From NCBI GenBank assembly GCA_012728125.1, contig JAAYFT010000139.1, forward strand, positions 1 to 47,786: DNA of 47,786 nt, in the 5' to 3' direction. Below, piece after piece: positions 20,635 through 47,786 of the stretch. The stretch comes from Tissierellia bacterium (lineage in GTDB: Bacteria > Bacillota > Clostridia > Tissierellales > Tissierellaceae). Position numbers and translations under genes: made by a program. Within the stretch, counting starts at the first letter, position 1. The number at the start of each line of letters is the position of its first letter. The notes below the pieces were generated by a model, which ran no database searches, was not told where the DNA came from, and saw only the letters and a list, made by a program, of their open reading frames with translations.

Positions 20635-20676
20635 TTACTTTCATCCTTTCATGCTGTATTGCCCCTTTCTCTATAA

Positions 20677-20706
20677 AATTATTGCCTTGAATAGCATTTT
20701 TATTCA
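20677..20706 (-). promoter_or_regulatory. SigF/SigG-type forespore promoter of sigG
   Basis: The -10 box GGCAATAATT (20686-20677) fits the sigma-F consensus GGnRAYAMTW at every position. The -35 box TGAATA (20706-20701) differs by one base from WGCATA and equals the sigma-G -35. The spacer is 14 bp, one short of the usual 15. It lies 43 bp upstream of the sigG ATG. Confidence 0.7.
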
Positions 20707-20732
20707 AAAATTTATTTTACTTAAAGTCCATT

Positions 20733-21449
20733 TTACATCAGCTTTACCATCTCTTTCCTCAGCCTTTTAATTATTCTCTTTTCTAGCCTAGATATATAGG
20801 ACTGGGAAATACCTAAAAGGTCTGCAACTTCTTTCTGGGTTTTTTCCTTCCCATTATGTAGTCCGAACCTTAATTCAATTATGGTTTTTTCTCTACCAGA
20901 TAACTTGCTAATGGCTTGTTTTAACAAGACCCTATCTACTTCCGATTCAATATTTTTAAATATAATATCTCCATCAGTTCCTAAAATGTCTGATAATAGT
21001 AGTTCATTTCCATCCCAATCTGTATTTAAAGGTTCATCTAAGGAGATTTCTGATTTCATTTTGCTAGTCCTTCGAAGGTACATGAGTATCTCATTTTCTA
21101 TACATTTTGAAGCATAGGTGGCAAGCTTAATATTCTTATCAGGATCAAAAGTGTTAACAGCCTTTATTAGTCCAATGGTACCTATTGAAATAAGGTCTTC
21201 AATGGATATTTTAGTGTTTTCAAATTTCCTAGCTATATATACTACAAGTCTTAAGTTCCTTTCAATTAGTATAGTTTTGACTGTTTCGTCTTCCTTGATC
21301 AAGGAAAGATAATGGGCCTCTTCTTCTGGAGATAATGGTGGAGGTAATATTTCTCCACTTCCTATATAATGAACTATTTTTATAATATTTAATTTTTCCA
21401 ATACTTTATATAAAATAGTTTTTAATCTAAGTTTGATACTCGTAAACAT
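20733..21449 (-). CDS. sigE: Sporulation sigma factor SigE (mother cell), made as pro-protein
   Basis: This 238-residue pro-sigma factor has a hydrophobic/basic N-terminal pro-sequence (about residues 1-27) before the core starting near [15 protein letters not shown]. Region 2 ([35 protein letters not shown]) and region 4 HTH ([22 protein letters not shown]) are complete. The SpoIIGA protease encoded just upstream removes the pro-sequence after asymmetric division. The two genes overlap by 23 bases, so synthesis of protease and substrate is coupled. The gene is continuous, with no skin-like interruption. Confidence 0.98.
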
Positions 21450-26252: not shown

Positions 26253-26270
26253 TCAAAATGCTGCTAATCA
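26241..26270. repeat. Perfect 15-bp tandem duplication across the murA stop codon
   Basis: AAATGCTGCTAATCA occurs twice in direct succession (26241-26255 and 26256-26270). The right copy contains the murA stop (26264-26266). Confidence 0.95.
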
Positions 26271-27517
26271 ATCTTTACTATATCTGCACCTAAGTTTTGC
26301 AAGGTTATATGGAAATCTTCATATCCTCTTTCTATGTGATAAATATTTTGAACTTCAGTAGTCCCTTTAGCAACTAATCCTGCTAAAGTCAAAGCTGCTC
26401 CACCTCTTAAATCCTTAGCAGTTACCTTTGCACCTGTTAATTCTTTAACACCATTAATGACTGCAACCCTACCAAAGATCTTTATATTGGCCCCCATTCT
26501 AATTAATTCCTCACCATGTTTAAACCTGTTTTCAAATACAGTTTCACAGATTATACTGGTTCCATTAGCTATTGATAAGAGAGCCATCATTTGAGCCTGC
26601 ATATCTGTTGGAAATCCAGGATAGGGTAAAGTTTGTATCATTTCTATTGAATTGACCTTTCTAGGACCTGCTACTTTTAAAGAGTTGCCATTGGTATAGA
26701 TCAAGGCACCTGCTTCCTTTAACTTAGCTATTGTTCCCAATAGATGTTCTACAATAATGTTATTCAAAATAATATCTCCACCTGTTATGGTAGATGCAAC
26801 CATTAAGGTACCTGCTACAATCCTATCAGGAATTATGGTATGTGTAACGTCTTTTAACTCTTTAACACCCTCTATTGTTATTACTGAAGTTCCTGCACCG
26901 GAGACCTTGGCTCCAGACTTATTTAAGTAGTTTTGTAAGTCAATTATTTCAGGTTCCCTAGCTGCATTTCTAATCACTGTAGTTCCCTTTGCCTTTACAG
27001 CAGCTAGGATAATGTTTTCAGTGGCTCCTACCGATGGGTAATCCAATTGTATATCGCAGCCCTTTAACCCCTCAGTCTTACAGTATAGTTGACCATGAGA
27101 CTCTTCTATTATTGCTCCCATACTTCTTAATGCTTTTAAATGTAGATCTATAGGTCTTGGTCCAATTTCACAACCACCGGGGTAAGTTATGACAACCTCA
27201 CCCGTTCTTGATAACATTGCTCCCATTAGTATGATGGAAGATCTCATTTCCCTAACTAATTCCTCTGGAACTACTATTTGATTTAGGGGTTTAGAATCTA
27301 TTTCCATGATATTACCAGTTCTTTTAACTGTACAACCTAATGATAAGAGAATACTTTCCATTATTTCCACATCTCTTAAATTAGGTATATTAAATATGGT
27401 GCTTTTATTTTCTCCAATAACAGTGGCTGCTAATATAGGTAGTACTGAATTCTTGGCTCCTGAAACTGAAACTTCTCCCATTAGCTTATTTCCACCATTG
27501 ATAATATATTTTCCCAC
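26264..27517 (-). CDS. murA: UDP-N-acetylglucosamine 1-carboxyvinyltransferase MurA
   Basis: The 417-residue cytosolic enzyme transfers enolpyruvate from PEP to UDP-GlcNAc, the first committed step of peptidoglycan synthesis. It has the two-domain EPSP-synthase-like fold with the N-terminal GGNKLMGEVSVSGAKNSVLP stretch. The fosfomycin-target cysteine is present (Cys116 in GGCEIGPRPID), so no natural Cys-to-Asp resistance is seen. I chose the GTG at 27517, seven bases after GGAGG; the in-frame ATG at 27538 precedes the ribosome site. Its place between murG and ftsQ is typical for clostridia. Confidence 0.96.
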   Translation of the reverse strand: MGKYIINGGNKLMGEVSVSGAKNSVLPILAATVIGENKSTIFNIPNLRDVEIMESILLSLGCTVKRTGNIMEIDSKPLNQIVVPEELVREMRSSIILMGAMLSRTGEVVITYPGGCEIGPRPIDLHLKALRSMGAIIEESHGQLYCKTEGLKGCDIQLDYPSVGATENIILAAVKAKGTTVIRNAAREPEIIDLQNYLNKSGAKVSGAGTSVITIEGVKELKDVTHTIIPDRIVAGTLMVASTITGGDIILNNIIVEHLLGTIAKLKEAGALIYTNGNSLKVAGPRKVNSIEMIQTLPYPGFPTDMQAQMMALLSIANGTSIICETVFENRFKHGEELIRMGANIKIFGRVAVINGVKELTGAKVTAKDLRGGAALTLAGLVAKGTTEVQNIYHIERGYEDFHITLQNLGADIVKID

Positions 27518-27590
27518 CAAACCACCTCCGCATAACATACATTCGAGTATATAAACATATTATGCATAGGTGGATTTAGGGTTACAGATT

Positions 27591-28688
27591 TTATTTTATG
27601 ATGGTTTCAATAAGCTGGTATATCTTTTCTGCTGCATCGATTTGACCCATTTTTTTGCTATTTTTTCTCATATTTGATAATTTTTTGTCATCTCTTATAA
27701 TACTATATATAATATCATCTAGTCTGGTATTATTTAAATCCTTCTCAAGTACTAATACGCAAGCTCCATTTTTTTCAAAGGCCCTAGCATTAAACTCCTG
27801 ATGGTTTTCTGCTGTATAACTTTTAGGTATTAATATGCTTGGGACACCTACTGCTGAAATCTCTGCCAAGGTAATGGCTCCTGCTGAGGTAATAACAAGG
27901 CTTGCAATGTTTATTGCTTCAGGCATCTGGTAAAAGTATGGGAATATCCTAATGTTTTTATCAAGTATAATGTTGTTTTTATTGATCTCTTTCATAAATT
28001 CATCATAGAATCTTTTACCAGTTACATGAATTAGCTGTATGTCTTTTATACCCCTTCTAATAAAATCAAACATGGCATCGTTTAATTTTTTCTGTCCTCC
28101 ACTACCTCCAAAGGATAGGATAAAGGGTTTATTTTTATCTATATTTAGGCTTTTATAGGCCATTTCCTTATCTATTTCAAGGATTTCCCTACGGATTGGG
28201 TTTCCTGTTTTTACAACCCTATCGGGGTGTTTAAAGTATTTTTTTGACTCCTCGAAGGTTACAGCTACCTTATCCACATATCTAGATAAAATCTTATTTG
28301 TAATACCTGGATAGGCGTTTTGTTCGTGGATTAATGCAGGTATCTTTTTCCTCTTAGCCACATAGACTACTGGACCACAAACATATCCTCCAGTACCTAT
28401 TACAACATCGGGCTTAAATTCGTCTAAGATCTTCTTGGCATCAAATAAGCCATGTATAAGTTCCTTTGCTGCAATTAATGAATTTTTATTTAATCTCCTA
28501 GGCAAGCCCTTAACCCTTATGGTTTTAAATTTTAATCCTTCCTTTGGTACCAGTTCTGCTTCTAAACCCTCCTTAGTACCTACATAAAGGATATTGGCAT
28601 TTTTATCTCTTAACTGAATTTCTTTTGCAATGGCTAAGGCAGGGTATATGTGGCCACCTGTACCTCCACCAGATATTAAATATTTCAA
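27591..28688 (-). CDS. murG: MurG glycosyltransferase (lipid II synthesis)
   Basis: The 365-residue peripheral membrane enzyme adds GlcNAc to lipid I to give lipid II. The N-terminal GGGTGGHIYPALAIA motif, the second glycine motif SFGGSGGQKKLND and the UDP-binding region SAGAITLAEISAVGVPSILIP are all present. The preferred start is the TTG at 28688, nine bases after AGGAG. The TTG at 28697 touches the site and overlaps the ftsW stop. It is translationally coupled to ftsW. Confidence 0.96.
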   Translation of the reverse strand: MKYLISGGGTGGHIYPALAIAKEIQLRDKNANILYVGTKEGLEAELVPKEGLKFKTIRVKGLPRRLNKNSLIAAKELIHGLFDAKKILDEFKPDVVIGTGGYVCGPVVYVAKRKKIPALIHEQNAYPGITNKILSRYVDKVAVTFEESKKYFKHPDRVVKTGNPIRREILEIDKEMAYKSLNIDKNKPFILSFGGSGGQKKLNDAMFDFIRRGIKDIQLIHVTGKRFYDEFMKEINKNNIILDKNIRIFPYFYQMPEAINIASLVITSAGAITLAEISAVGVPSILIPKSYTAENHQEFNARAFEKNGACVLVLEKDLNNTRLDDIIYSIIRDDKKLSNMRKNSKKMGQIDAAEKIYQLIETIIK

Positions 28689-41365: not shown

Positions 41366-41461
41366 AACCATTCCTCCCTATTACTATATTAATTTTACTA
41401 TACCCAAATTCACTTATGTTACTTATAATATTATTATGACAAAAGCAAAAAATTCAAAAAA

Positions 41462-41479
41462 CCCATTCAAAAGAATGGG
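41462..41479 (-). terminator. Terminator after the spore lipoprotein gene
   Basis: CCCATTC-AAAA-GAATGGG, a 7-bp stem, is followed by TTTTTT and a second T-run on the minus strand. Confidence 0.85.
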
Positions 41480-41490
41480 CTCAATTACTT

Positions 41491-41940
41491 TTACTTGCTT
41501 TTTTCGATTAGCCTGCTGATTTCATTTACATATTTATCATAGGAAGTACCATTCATTAAATCTGTTATAATCTCCACTATTTGAAAAAATGTTTTTTCAT
41601 CGTTTGAAATAATGACTTCCTTTATTTCACTATCACTTTCTAATACAGTATCCTTTATTAAATTCTTAGTGTCATCATCAAATTCCATATCATAGGCCAT
41701 TATAACGGAAACAAGTGCTGTATCATTTAAAATAATTGTAGCAGCATCATCTATACCAAATAGCTCCACTACATGGTCTGATAAGGTTTCTGACCTGTCG
41801 ATTATAACCTTATCTTCAACAGATACTTCTACACTGGTATTGTCCGGTTCCTCTACCATGGGAATTTCATTCTGCTTAGATGTGCAACCCATCTGCAATA
41901 CTAGAAGTAAAGCTACTATAAGTAATAAATATCTTTTCAA
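41491..41940 (-). CDS. YhcN/YlaJ-like sporulation lipoprotein
   Basis: The 149-residue protein has a lipoprotein signal peptide: Lys/Arg, hydrophobic LLLIVALLLVLQMG and the lipobox LQMGC with Cys19. The following domain (DHVVELFGIDDAATIILNDTALVSVIM ... IKEVIISNDEKTFFQI) matches the YhcN/YlaJ family of spore-associated lipoproteins. These occur in the inner spore membrane region and influence germination in some species. The start is TTG at 41940, six bases after GAGGAGG. That ribosome site would be buried in a long hairpin (41946-41999), so expression may be controlled at translation. Confidence 0.82.
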   Translation of the reverse strand: MKRYLLLIVALLLVLQMGCTSKQNEIPMVEEPDNTSVEVSVEDKVIIDRSETLSDHVVELFGIDDAATIILNDTALVSVIMAYDMEFDDDTKNLIKDTVLESDSEIKEVIISNDEKTFFQIVEIITDLMNGTSYDKYVNEISRLIEKSK

Positions 41941-41945
41941 AATAT

Positions 41946-41999
41946 CCCTCCTCTTATTATAGTTTTACAAAATTTCTAAAATTTATAACAAGAAGAGGG
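41946..41999 (-). promoter_or_regulatory. Long hairpin covering the ribosome site of the spore lipoprotein gene
   Basis: In the message, CCCTCTTCTTGTTATA (41999-41984) pairs with TATAATAAGAGGAGGG (41961-41946) over 16 bp with two G-U pairs and a 22-base AT-rich loop. The 3' arm contains the SD GAGGAGGG. It may be an RNA switch or an unusual deoC terminator, since ATATTTTG follows. Confidence 0.7.
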
Positions 42000-42007
42000 A
42001 AAATTTA

Positions 42008-42658
42008 TTATAATTCTTGAGCTATTTTTACTCCAGAGCTGGCGCCTAATCTAGTAGCTCCTGCTTCAACCATCCTTCTTGCAGTTTCTAAGTCCCTAAT
42101 GCCACCTGATGCCTTTATGCCCATTTCATTACCAACTACTGACTTCATCAGTTTAACATCTTCTACTGTTGCACCTCCAGTGGAAAAACCAGTGGAAGTC
42201 TTTACAAAATCCGCACCGACTTCTAAGGACAACTCACAAGCCTTTTTCTTCTCATCTTCTGTCAGCAGGCAGGTTTCAATAATTACCTTAACTATTGCTT
42301 TTCCTTTTGCAGCCTCCACAACAGATCTTATATCTTCTTTTACTAGGTCATAGTCCTTGTTTTTTAAGGCTCCAATATTTATTACCATATCTATTTCGTC
42401 TGCCCCATTTTTAATGGCATCTAAGGTTTCAAAGGCCTTTACTTCCTTTGTACTGGCTCCTAAAGGAAATCCAATAACTGTAGCTACTTTAATATCAGTA
42501 TCTTTTAATAGGTCCTTGGCCAATTTTACAAAGTATGGGTTTACACATACGGCACAGAAATTGTATTCAATTGCTTCTTTACATAGATTCTCTATCATGG
42601 AATCTGTAGCATCTGGTTTCAACAAGGTATGGTCTATAATTCCTAAAATATCTTTCAT
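42008..42658 (-). CDS. deoC: Deoxyribose-phosphate aldolase DeoC
   Basis: The 216-residue TIM-barrel class I aldolase splits 2-deoxyribose-5-phosphate into glyceraldehyde-3-phosphate and acetaldehyde. The Schiff-base lysine is in [13 protein letters not shown], the second lysine in [10 protein letters not shown], and the Asp in [14 protein letters not shown] placed the start at the ATG at 42658 after AGGTGATTATT; the GTG at 42667 would overlap the ribosome site. It lies 14 bp after pduL, so both are probably one transcript. No other deoxynucleoside-use genes are nearby. Confidence 0.96.
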
Positions 42659-42672
42659 AATAATCACCTAAA

Positions 42673-43245
42673 TTATTTTATTAATTCAACTAAATCGCCG
42701 TTTTTCACTCCTGCTGCATTACCTTCTTCAATGTCTACATGCATTTCTAGTTGAAAACTATCTGATACTCTAACTAATACATTGTTAAATATTAGTCCCC
42801 TATCTCCGTCTACCTTTATGCTTACTATATCCTTATCCTTTACGCCAAATTCTTCAGCATCTTTAGTATGCATATGAATATGTCTTGCAGCAACTATTAA
42901 ACCTTCTTCTAATTCAACTTCTCCCTTTGGTCCTACTAATTTAGCACCAGGAGTTCCCTTTATATCTCCAGAATTTCTGATTACAGGTTTTACACCTAGG
43001 GTAAAGGCATCTGCAACTGATAATTCAAATTGTGTGCTTGATCTAACAGGACCTAGTATTCTAACGCCCTTAATTGTATTTTTTGGTCCTACTACATCTA
43101 CCTTTTCCTCACAGGCATATTGTCCCGGTTGAGATAAGTCTCTTAGTTTTGTTAATTCATATCCTTCACCAAATAATATATCCAAATGTTCTTGACTTAA
43201 ATGGATATGTCTATTTGATAATGCTATAGGTAATTGTTTTTTCAT
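42673..43245 (-). CDS. pduL: PduL-type phosphotransacylase
   Basis: The 190-residue enzyme exchanges CoA and phosphate on acyl groups (acetyl- or propanoyl-CoA with acyl phosphate). It is made of two beta-barrel domains with the zinc-binding SNRHIHLS (residues 10-17), AARHIHMH and LEMHVD motifs. There is no N-terminal extension of the kind that targets PduL to microcompartments and no shell genes nearby, so this is a free cytosolic form. It could form acetyl phosphate for ATP from acetyl-CoA made by amino acid fermentation. The ATG at 43245 follows GGGGGTTTTAGAT; an ATG five codons earlier precedes that site. Confidence 0.93.
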   Translation of the reverse strand: MKKQLPIALSNRHIHLSQEHLDILFGEGYELTKLRDLSQPGQYACEEKVDVVGPKNTIKGVRILGPVRSSTQFELSVADAFTLGVKPVIRNSGDIKGTPGAKLVGPKGEVELEEGLIVAARHIHMHTKDAEEFGVKDKDIVSIKVDGDRGLIFNNVLVRVSDSFQLEMHVDIEEGNAAGVKNGDLVELIK

Positions 43246-43268
43246 ATCTAAAACCCCCATTGTTTTAT

Positions 43269-46735: not shown

Positions 46736-46769
46736 AAAGGACTTCTACCTTTGAATGTAGAAGTCCTTT
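46736..46769 (-). terminator. Terminator between the flavodoxin gene and aroC
   Basis: AAAGGACTTCTAC / GTAGAAGTCCTTT form a perfect 13-bp stem with an 8-base loop, followed by TTTTTT counting the stem end. The stem overlaps the last codons and stop of the flavodoxin gene, and the aroC SD AGGAGG (46732-46727) begins right after the T-run. Confidence 0.88.
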
Positions 46770-47338
46770 ATGTTTTGAATATTCTTACCTATTGCATATA
46801 ACTCTTCTTTGATTTCTGGTCTCATATATACAGGTATTTCATCTGTATTGGATACAAAATAATTACCCTTATAAGTTGCGTTTATAGATTTAAAGAAGAA
46901 ATCTATTACTGGTATTGAACCATTAAACTGTTCAAAGGTATAGGGTGCTCCTCCAACTGCCAAAAATATGCCAATTCGGTCTTCAGTATTTCTATATTTT
47001 TTACCTAATTTGTATTTTAAAGACCAGTATCTTTGACACCTATCTACCATATTTTTAGTCAATCCATTGATTGAATTAAAGTAGATTGGAGCAGCCAAAA
47101 TTATTATATCACTAGTATCAAAGCCTTCATAAATATAGGTCATATCGTCCTTTTCTACGCAGGCTTCTACATGGCCACAATAGTCACACCCAGTACAGTA
47201 ATTAATTTTTTTATCGATTAAATTGATCTTCTCAATATTATATTCTTCTTTATTTAGGCCATCCAATAGGTATTCTAATAGTTTATCAGTATTCTTACCT
47301 TTTCTCGGACTACCCATTAACGCTAAAATTTTCTTCAT
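46745..47338 (-). CDS. Flavodoxin-fold NAD(P)H-dependent FMN reductase-like protein
   Basis: The 197-residue protein has the flavodoxin-like N-terminus LALMGSPRKGKNTDKLLEYLL that binds FMN phosphate. It also has a cysteine cluster CTGCDYCGHVEAC near residues 48-60, typical of iron-sulfur flavoprotein-like or NADPH-dependent FMN reductase family members in anaerobes. APIYFNSINGLTKNMVDR is the second FMN-contact region. The electron partner is unknown. The gene is eight bases after the FolT-like gene and ends in a terminator. ATG after AGGGGGACAA. Confidence 0.85.
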   Translation of the reverse strand: MKKILALMGSPRKGKNTDKLLEYLLDGLNKEEYNIEKINLIDKKINYCTGCDYCGHVEACVEKDDMTYIYEGFDTSDIIILAAPIYFNSINGLTKNMVDRCQRYWSLKYKLGKKYRNTEDRIGIFLAVGGAPYTFEQFNGSIPVIDFFFKSINATYKGNYFVSNTDEIPVYMRPEIKEELYAIGKNIQNIKDFYIQR

Positions 47339-47346
47339 TTGTCCCC

Positions 47347-47786
47347 CTATAATGCTACTCTAGTTCTTAGGACTCTAACTAGTAGAGTAATTAAATAGGT
47401 TGACAAGGGCATTTTAACCAAGTCTGATAAAAGTCTGCCTGGCAATAGTACAAAAAACCCTTTCCCATACATTAAGCTTAACCAGTAGGTATTTAAGATT
47501 AATGATATGGGGATAGTACAAGCAACTATTATGAATAGGATTCTCTTAAAAGTAAAAGGATTTCCCTTCTCTCCCCTTCTTCTCAAATACAAGCCATAGA
47601 TTCCAGGTAAAATTCCCCATAACATTGAACTTAAGGTAAAGCCTGGGAAAAATGGTCCCTGTGGAAAGGCCCAAGCACCGATTAGGTCTGCCACTAAGCC
47701 TGTCAATCCACCTACAAAGGGTCCAAATAATAGGCCACTCATAATTATAGGTAGTTCTCCAAAACCTAACCTTAAGGCTGGAAGGC
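47347..47786 (-). CDS. ECF transporter substrate-binding (S) component, FolT-like, 5' truncated
   Basis: The gene enters the window at its right edge; the visible 146 or so codons read on past the first in-frame ATG (47742) to the edge with LRLGFGELPIIMSG. The sequence has about four membrane helices and the family element SGLLFGPFVGGLTGLVADLIG, followed by LSSMLWGILPGIYG. This is typical for the folate-type S component of energy-coupling factor transporters. Substrate specificity is inferred from the family only. The N-terminal helices and the start lie outside the window. The flavodoxin-family gene follows closely. Confidence 0.85.
   Translation of the reverse strand, partial: LPALRLGFGELPIIMSGLLFGPFVGGLTGLVADLIGAWAFPQGPFFPGFTLSSMLWGILPGIYGLYLRRRGEKGNPFTFKRILFIIVACTIPISLILNTYWLSLMYGKGFFVLLPGRLLSDLVKMPLSTYLITLLVRVLRTRVAL

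Follow-up and report, generated by a model that had tools for sequence, protein, structure and literature searches.

Ribosome-site hairpins that depend on the transcription start are a known type of control. In the insertion sequences IS10 and IS50, read-through RNA hides the start site of the transposase by an inverted repeat and RNA initiated inside does not; unlike the locus described here, these are mobile elements with terminal inverted repeats. In phage T4, long upstream transcripts of gene e (also of soc, 49 and I-TevI) fold the ribosome site into a helix, and a late promoter just upstream of this site gives RNA that lacks the 5' strand and is well translated; a 100-fold reduction is given for the effect (PMC3014915). 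For Bacillus subtilis, PMC5942855 proposes that a hairpin of 20 or more bp blocks the translation of sigG from spoIIG read-through RNA and is unable to form when the RNA starts at the sigG promoter, and it describes a 5-bp hairpin at the ribosome-binding site of the promoter-initiated sigG leader, which dampens translation 2-4-fold.

The present locus has the same arrangement as T4 gene e, with the Shine-Dalgarno sequence (SD) hidden in the long RNA and a putative internal start, and the sequestration of the SD in the longer upstream RNA is predicted here by computation. T4 gene e belongs to a phage, is driven by one of its late promoters and has a measured effect, whereas here a bacterial spore gene is concerned, with a predicted promoter and a predicted effect. 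Like sigG of B. subtilis, the present gene is a putative forespore gene behind a non-forespore operon, but it encodes a YhcN/YlaJ lipoprotein, follows deoC and is found in relatives of Tissierella. The 5-bp hairpin of sigG likewise covers a forespore gene's ribosome site, while the present stem needs upstream sequence. Our best reading is that the locus belongs to the start-site-dependent type of T4 gene e and B. subtilis spoIIG-sigG; the type is known and the member is new. A literature search of open-licence papers on sporulation, hidden SDs and read-through found no report on the leader of the lipoprotein gene.

In the bacterial family of the window, sigG itself has an SD without deep burial (0.3-4.6 kcal/mol, 10 of 10). 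In four Tissierella-type loci (L058, L060, L061, L062) an inverted repeat, nearly perfect over about 20 bp, lies between sigE and sigG, where it spans the forespore promoter and spares the SD. This repeat is weak in the genus of the window, where its counterpart lies at about 20635-20770 on the minus strand. It could terminate the transcription of the sigE unit, or it could be left over from the arrangement known in Bacillus.

The window is the whole stretch of DNA that was analysed (47,786 nt), and both the lipoprotein gene and the hairpin are on its minus strand. On this strand a phosphate propanoyltransferase gene (42673-43260) lies upstream of deoC (deoxyribose-phosphate aldolase, 42008-42667, stop codon 42008-42010), which was assigned by TIGR00126 (307.9 bits) and the open reading frame list. 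The lipoprotein gene (41491-41940, also in the open reading frame list) encodes 149 amino acids and starts with TTG at 41940-41938, 67 nt past the deoC stop. The earlier note had called it a spore lipoprotein gene, and this is borne out by homology: the protein matches Pfam Spore_YhcN_YlaJ (PF09580) with 52.8 bits (E 6.1e-14), above the gathering cut-off of 26.3, and it stays under the cut-off of NCBIfam TIGR02898 (48.6 versus 99.75 bits). Judged by these profile scores it is a divergent member of the Pfam family PF09580, and its LQMGC sequence is lipobox-like. The terminator scan of the window gave none between deoC and the lipoprotein gene. The first terminator-like hairpin downstream of deoC on the minus strand, in the region scanned, is an intrinsic-terminator-like hairpin directly after the lipoprotein gene (41459-41482, minus strand).

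Between the two genes, the RNA of the minus strand from 41921 to 42010 folds with -25.9 kcal/mol, and shuffled sequences gave a mean of -12.2 (sd 2.6, z -5.3), none of 200 being as stable; the plus-strand fold of the same region has -16.7 kcal/mol (z -4.6). The fold and the alignments place the 5' (blocking) arm at 41984-42000 (alignment columns 13-29), a loop of 22 nt with a weak inner helix at 41962-41983, and the 3' arm at 41945-41961 (columns 52-68), all on the minus strand. The SD, AGGAGG at 41947-41952 on the minus strand by sequence, lies entirely inside the 3' arm. The hairpin of 16 bp that had been proposed at 41946-41999 thus exists in the prediction, with the same loop of 22 bases, but the outer stem has 17 bp since one U-A pair had been omitted. 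The 5' arm accordingly begins 7 nt after the deoC stop, near to it as had been said, and not 8 as in the count for the shorter stem, and the pairing covers the whole SD and not nearly the whole.

We rejected the hairpin as a terminator, as it has no U run and is absent from the terminator scan list, and also as a riboswitch or known leader, as it has no Rfam match. A search with Rfam at gathering score over the whole window detected only a T-box leader (RF00230, 120 bits) at 17-248 of the minus strand, at the window edge.

Freeing the lipoprotein SD costs 13.7 kcal/mol, which is the highest among 44 gene starts of the window (median 2.8; 45 were listed and one was left out for closeness to the window end), and the value varied from 12.9 to 13.7 kcal/mol across computations. 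Among 43 forespore-type gene starts in relatives (gpr, spoIIR, sigG and genes for small acid-soluble proteins, SASP), the median cost was 2.5 and the maximum 11.0 kcal/mol. Two further gene starts of the window exceed 10 kcal/mol (13.1 and 11.8), therefore a buried SD by itself is not unique in the window. At 27480-27600 of the minus strand, an upstream CCACCU arm forms a long stem with the SD region (GGAGGUGG) of gene 26264-27538, which we take to be murA-like; the opening cost is 13.1 kcal/mol and the fold has a z of -2.6. At 47310-47430 of the minus strand, the AGGGGG ribosome site of gene 46745-47338, presumably flavin reductase-like, lies under a hairpin (11.8 kcal/mol, z -2.2).

Matches to the lipoprotein were found in 24 of 40 related genomes (E up to 1e-3) and in 16 of 28 genomes of the family (E up to 1e-10); the two sets overlap and the genome of the window is in both. 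The comparison set consisted of 20 distinct loci with usable upstream DNA, including the window locus. L031-L033, L035, L036 and L037 were left out as the same places as L002, L003, L006, L004, L009 and L034, and L019-L030 were left out as weak, mostly partial matches. The lipoprotein gene is downstream of deoC in 15 of the 20 loci and elsewhere in five, where the upstream gene encodes an ABC transporter (L018), the upstream genes have similar C-termini (L008, L017) or the nearest large frame is divergent from the lipoprotein gene (L014, L016). Tissierella praeacuta (L004, the same place as L035) shares the arrangement of the window. With 95 nt of upstream RNA, the cost of opening the SD is 4.9-16.4 kcal/mol in the 15 deoC-linked loci versus 1.6-4.5 in the other five (rank test, p 0.0006 on loci and p 0.006 on genus means, values that are only indicative because the sequences are related). 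Pairing that hides the SD was predicted to some degree in all 15 deoC-linked relatives; its lack in orthologues had been named in the earlier note as a ground for refutation.

No terminator was found between deoC and the lipoprotein gene in eight genomes, of which three belong to g1, the genus of the window, four to g4 and one to g9; read-through is therefore expected there, and these genomes would rely on the hairpin. Their gap between the two genes is 66-76 nt, and the SD cost with 95 nt of upstream RNA is 9.6-16.4 kcal/mol. In six of the seven remaining deoC-linked loci, a terminator lies directly 3' of deoC; the exception is L012, with a G+C-rich stem without a T run. The SD is still buried to some degree in these seven loci (4.9-11.9 kcal/mol, about 5 in L009, L011 and L015). 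Insulation by terminator and by hairpin therefore appears to coexist there, and the hairpin cannot be seen as a mere replacement of the terminator. The comparison supports a function for the hairpin.

The DNA of the hairpin contains a promoter-like element of two blocks, GTTATA-N14-NGNAA..CTA, which covers 41960-41989 of the minus strand. Its -35-like block, GTTATA (41984-41989, minus strand), lies within the 5' arm, and its -10-like block, TGTAAAACTA (41960-41969, minus strand), is found 14 nt past it; both are kept in relatives. The spacing is 14 in 15 of the 20 loci, 13 of which have the exact GTTATA, and 13 in three loci with GAATTA as the first block. The last two misfit the search expression, and one of them, L038, reads TGTATC-N14-TGTAAAACTA. 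The element also occurs in L008, L014, L016 and L018, which have a weak hairpin or none, and it is therefore conserved for a reason other than the hairpin.

The spacing of 14 is also that of the forespore genes of the family: spoIIR and sigG show GNATA-N14-GGNAA.., and SASP genes show GNATA-N14 with other -10 blocks. The forespore -35 is known as GYATA, and at the window site TTATA stands in place of GNATA, so that A, T and A agree and the G does not. In Clostridium difficile, according to PMC3789822, a G is conserved on the upstream side of the -10 in sigma F promoters, and an A on its downstream side in sigma G promoters. The block TGTAAAACTA has G as its second base and A as its last, though its overall matrix score is weak. 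A forespore matrix was built on the sites of spoIIR and sigG and of a single SASP group, as the entries of the second SASP group lacked one base and dropped out. With this matrix the score at the window site was -0.3, which is matched by 0.31% of window positions, and the training sites scored 3.1-13.3; better scores occurred at nearby positions in all 18 loci scored. In the window locus, a matrix of gpr and spoIIR did not give the conserved site as the top pick; this matrix combines different genes and is in our view a poor test. In the own genome, the only occurrence of the pattern KTTATA-N15-GNNAAACTA is the present site, versus three occurrences of the reversed control, and the pattern therefore defines no regulon. 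The element is likely a forespore promoter, a grade short of demonstrated because the matrix score is weak.

Two other promoter classes were rejected. The -10 of sigma E/K promoters is CATA.., and this class fails at the -10, as the bases after CTA vary. The -35 features of this class were taken from PMC3789822. As to an ordinary sigma-A promoter, the scan listed no site of this kind over the hairpin on its own strand, the minus strand. Upstream of gpr, L040-L047 have a conserved AGGATA-N14 beside a divergent gene start, which resembles a gpr forespore promoter.

If the element is a promoter, transcription would be expected to start at 41953-41955 on the minus strand, 5-7 nt past the -10-like block and in the 3' arm, assuming the usual distance from -10 to start. 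The earlier note had supposed a start inside the loop, for example from a sporulation promoter. An element of forespore form is indeed present in the hairpin, but the start expected from it falls within the 3' arm, just before the SD, and therefore the short transcript would be without the blocking arm. In the eight genomes without a terminator, the SD cost falls from 9.6-16.1 kcal/mol in read-through RNA to 0.2-2.8 kcal/mol in RNA that starts 3, 5 or 7 nt past the -10-like block. In L001 and L003 the SD of the predicted short transcript is mostly paired, the probability of its being unpaired coming to 0.13 and 0.05, though it costs little to open.

Our best reading, which is backed by the comparison of genomes, is that the hairpin serves as an insulator at the level of translation, which keeps read-through RNA from deoC silent but permits the translation of transcripts made in the forespore; we hold this to be rather probable. 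Polymerase leaving deoC would meet no terminator and would copy the lipoprotein gene as the tail of the deoC message. In this long RNA the 5' arm would pair with the SD, as computed in the fold, and the start of ribosomes would presumably be blocked. A forespore-type promoter would be embedded in the DNA of the same hairpin, with its -35 in the 5' arm and its -10 between the loop and the 3' arm. The forespore transcript would then begin in the 3' arm just ahead of the SD, lack the 5' arm and be translated, and the lipoprotein would be made in the developing spore only, despite transcription of its DNA in growing cells. We infer that deoC transcripts do run on into the lipoprotein gene, that ribosomes make poor use of this long RNA and that the forespore produces the short one. 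The restriction of the protein to sporulation by the hairpin, as claimed earlier, is partly supported by the comparison, through the pairing in orthologues, the conserved element and the eight genomes without a terminator.

The hairpin may instead couple the two genes in translation, so that ribosomes finishing deoC open the lower stem and both proteins are produced together. In the genus of the window the arm starts 6-7 nt past the deoC stop and is reachable by a ribosome at the stop. When 11 nt were removed as covered by the ribosome, the opening cost in L001-L003 went from 12.9, 10.6 and 16.1 to 6.2, 2.6 and 4.9 kcal/mol, a drop of 6.7-11.2 kcal/mol. However, in the other five genomes without a terminator, the arm is 11-15 nt past the stop and the cost stays at 8.5-11.5 kcal/mol. 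The ribosome at the deoC stop covers part of the arm only in the window genus, so coupling is a live rival there only. There is also no evident reason for making a sporulation lipoprotein together with an aldolase, and six of the seven remaining deoC-linked loci have a terminator between the genes. We regard coupling as unlikely.

We give a low probability to a side effect of sequence without regulation, in which an AT-rich promoter with palindromic halves, lying beside a pyrimidine tract, pairs by chance with a G-rich ribosome site. The stem portion GTTATA/TATAAT does derive from the promoter-like block, and the two other buried SDs of the window, at 13.1 and 11.8 kcal/mol, would also fit a chance origin. 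But the outer arm lies outside promoter and coding DNA, and it exceeds its own shuffles in stability. We shuffled only the 20 nt before the -35-like block, 400 times in each of the eight genomes without a terminator. The real arm was in the best 0-2.5% by energy in eight of eight, and the stability was lost on shuffling. By the unpaired probability of the SD, L003 and L007 were not exceptional because one base is bulged.

The pattern of substitution also argues against a side effect. Across these eight genomes the 17-bp stem amounts to 136 cells, of which 97.1% pair, and slid controls gave 54-73%. Wherever the outer 5' arm varies among the eight genomes of three genera, C and U are the only bases exchanged; a C-A mismatch occurs in 3 of 88 cells of the outer arm (columns 13-23), and the inner arm has one A-C cell. 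The SD side is almost unchanging, and no covariation on both sides was found in the stem of the eight genomes, where such a change is not possible at the SD because it is invariant. In genus g6 (L009, L011, L012 and L038), a differently placed arm does the same job: the SD is hidden in a shifted register, by an arm that reaches past the SD toward the start codon (fold z -4.9 in L038). One pair of the g6 stem is changed on both sides, U-A in two of four and C-G in two of four. The covariation of the arms, proposed earlier as a check, is therefore seen over the SD stem in this one pair of one genus and in none of the eight genomes without a terminator.

It is very improbable that the hairpin serves the RNA itself, as a 3' end of the deoC message, as an element for the processing or stability of that message, or as a weak terminator. 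It does stand close behind the deoC stop, with no other terminator before the end of the lipoprotein gene, but the missing U run and the terminator scan speak against this role, which also leaves unexplained why the ribosome site is the paired arm in two registers. A switchable element opened by temperature, a small RNA or a protein might be suggested by the AU-rich stem over the SD and the weakly conserved inner helix, but we consider it hardly credible, since no Rfam family is reached at the gathering threshold, the conserved loop blocks are accounted for by a promoter that persists without the hairpin, and the inner helix shifts its register between species and so was not counted as conserved.

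Insulation by a hairpin at the ribosome site may not be limited to the lipoprotein gene. In the own genome (L077, 1400-1470), a CAAX-protease-like gene is followed at a distance of 48 nt by a SASP-like gene. A short hairpin that covers the SD of the SASP-like gene was predicted in five of five relatives (L077, L079, L080, L082 and L083), and the SD cost is 4.2-8.9 kcal/mol with 95 nt of upstream RNA versus 0.4-2.1 kcal/mol from 8 nt before the SD. A forespore-like -35 is right at the upstream stop, and a co-directional gene is near only in L077, L080 and L082. This case of L077 and four relatives suggests that the design may recur. It is possible, though doubtful, that self-hiding promoters are a general insulation in the spore formers of the lineage, in which forespore genes at the tail end of other transcription units have promoter DNA that doubles as a hairpin hiding the SD in read-through RNA.

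Other SASP-like loci (L078, L081, L084 and L085) have ATTACCT directly before the -35 (GTATT or GTATC), which is complementary to the distant SD region AGGTGA(T). ATTACC is also found in other SASP promoters with a non-matching SD, and therefore it may be a protein site instead.

If the proposed insulation is true, a spore gene can follow a metabolic gene without a terminator and yet stay reserved for the spore. Coverage of such genes by RNA-seq in growing cells then need not imply protein. Close relatives would mix insulation at transcription, by the terminator, and at translation, by the hairpin, in different ways.
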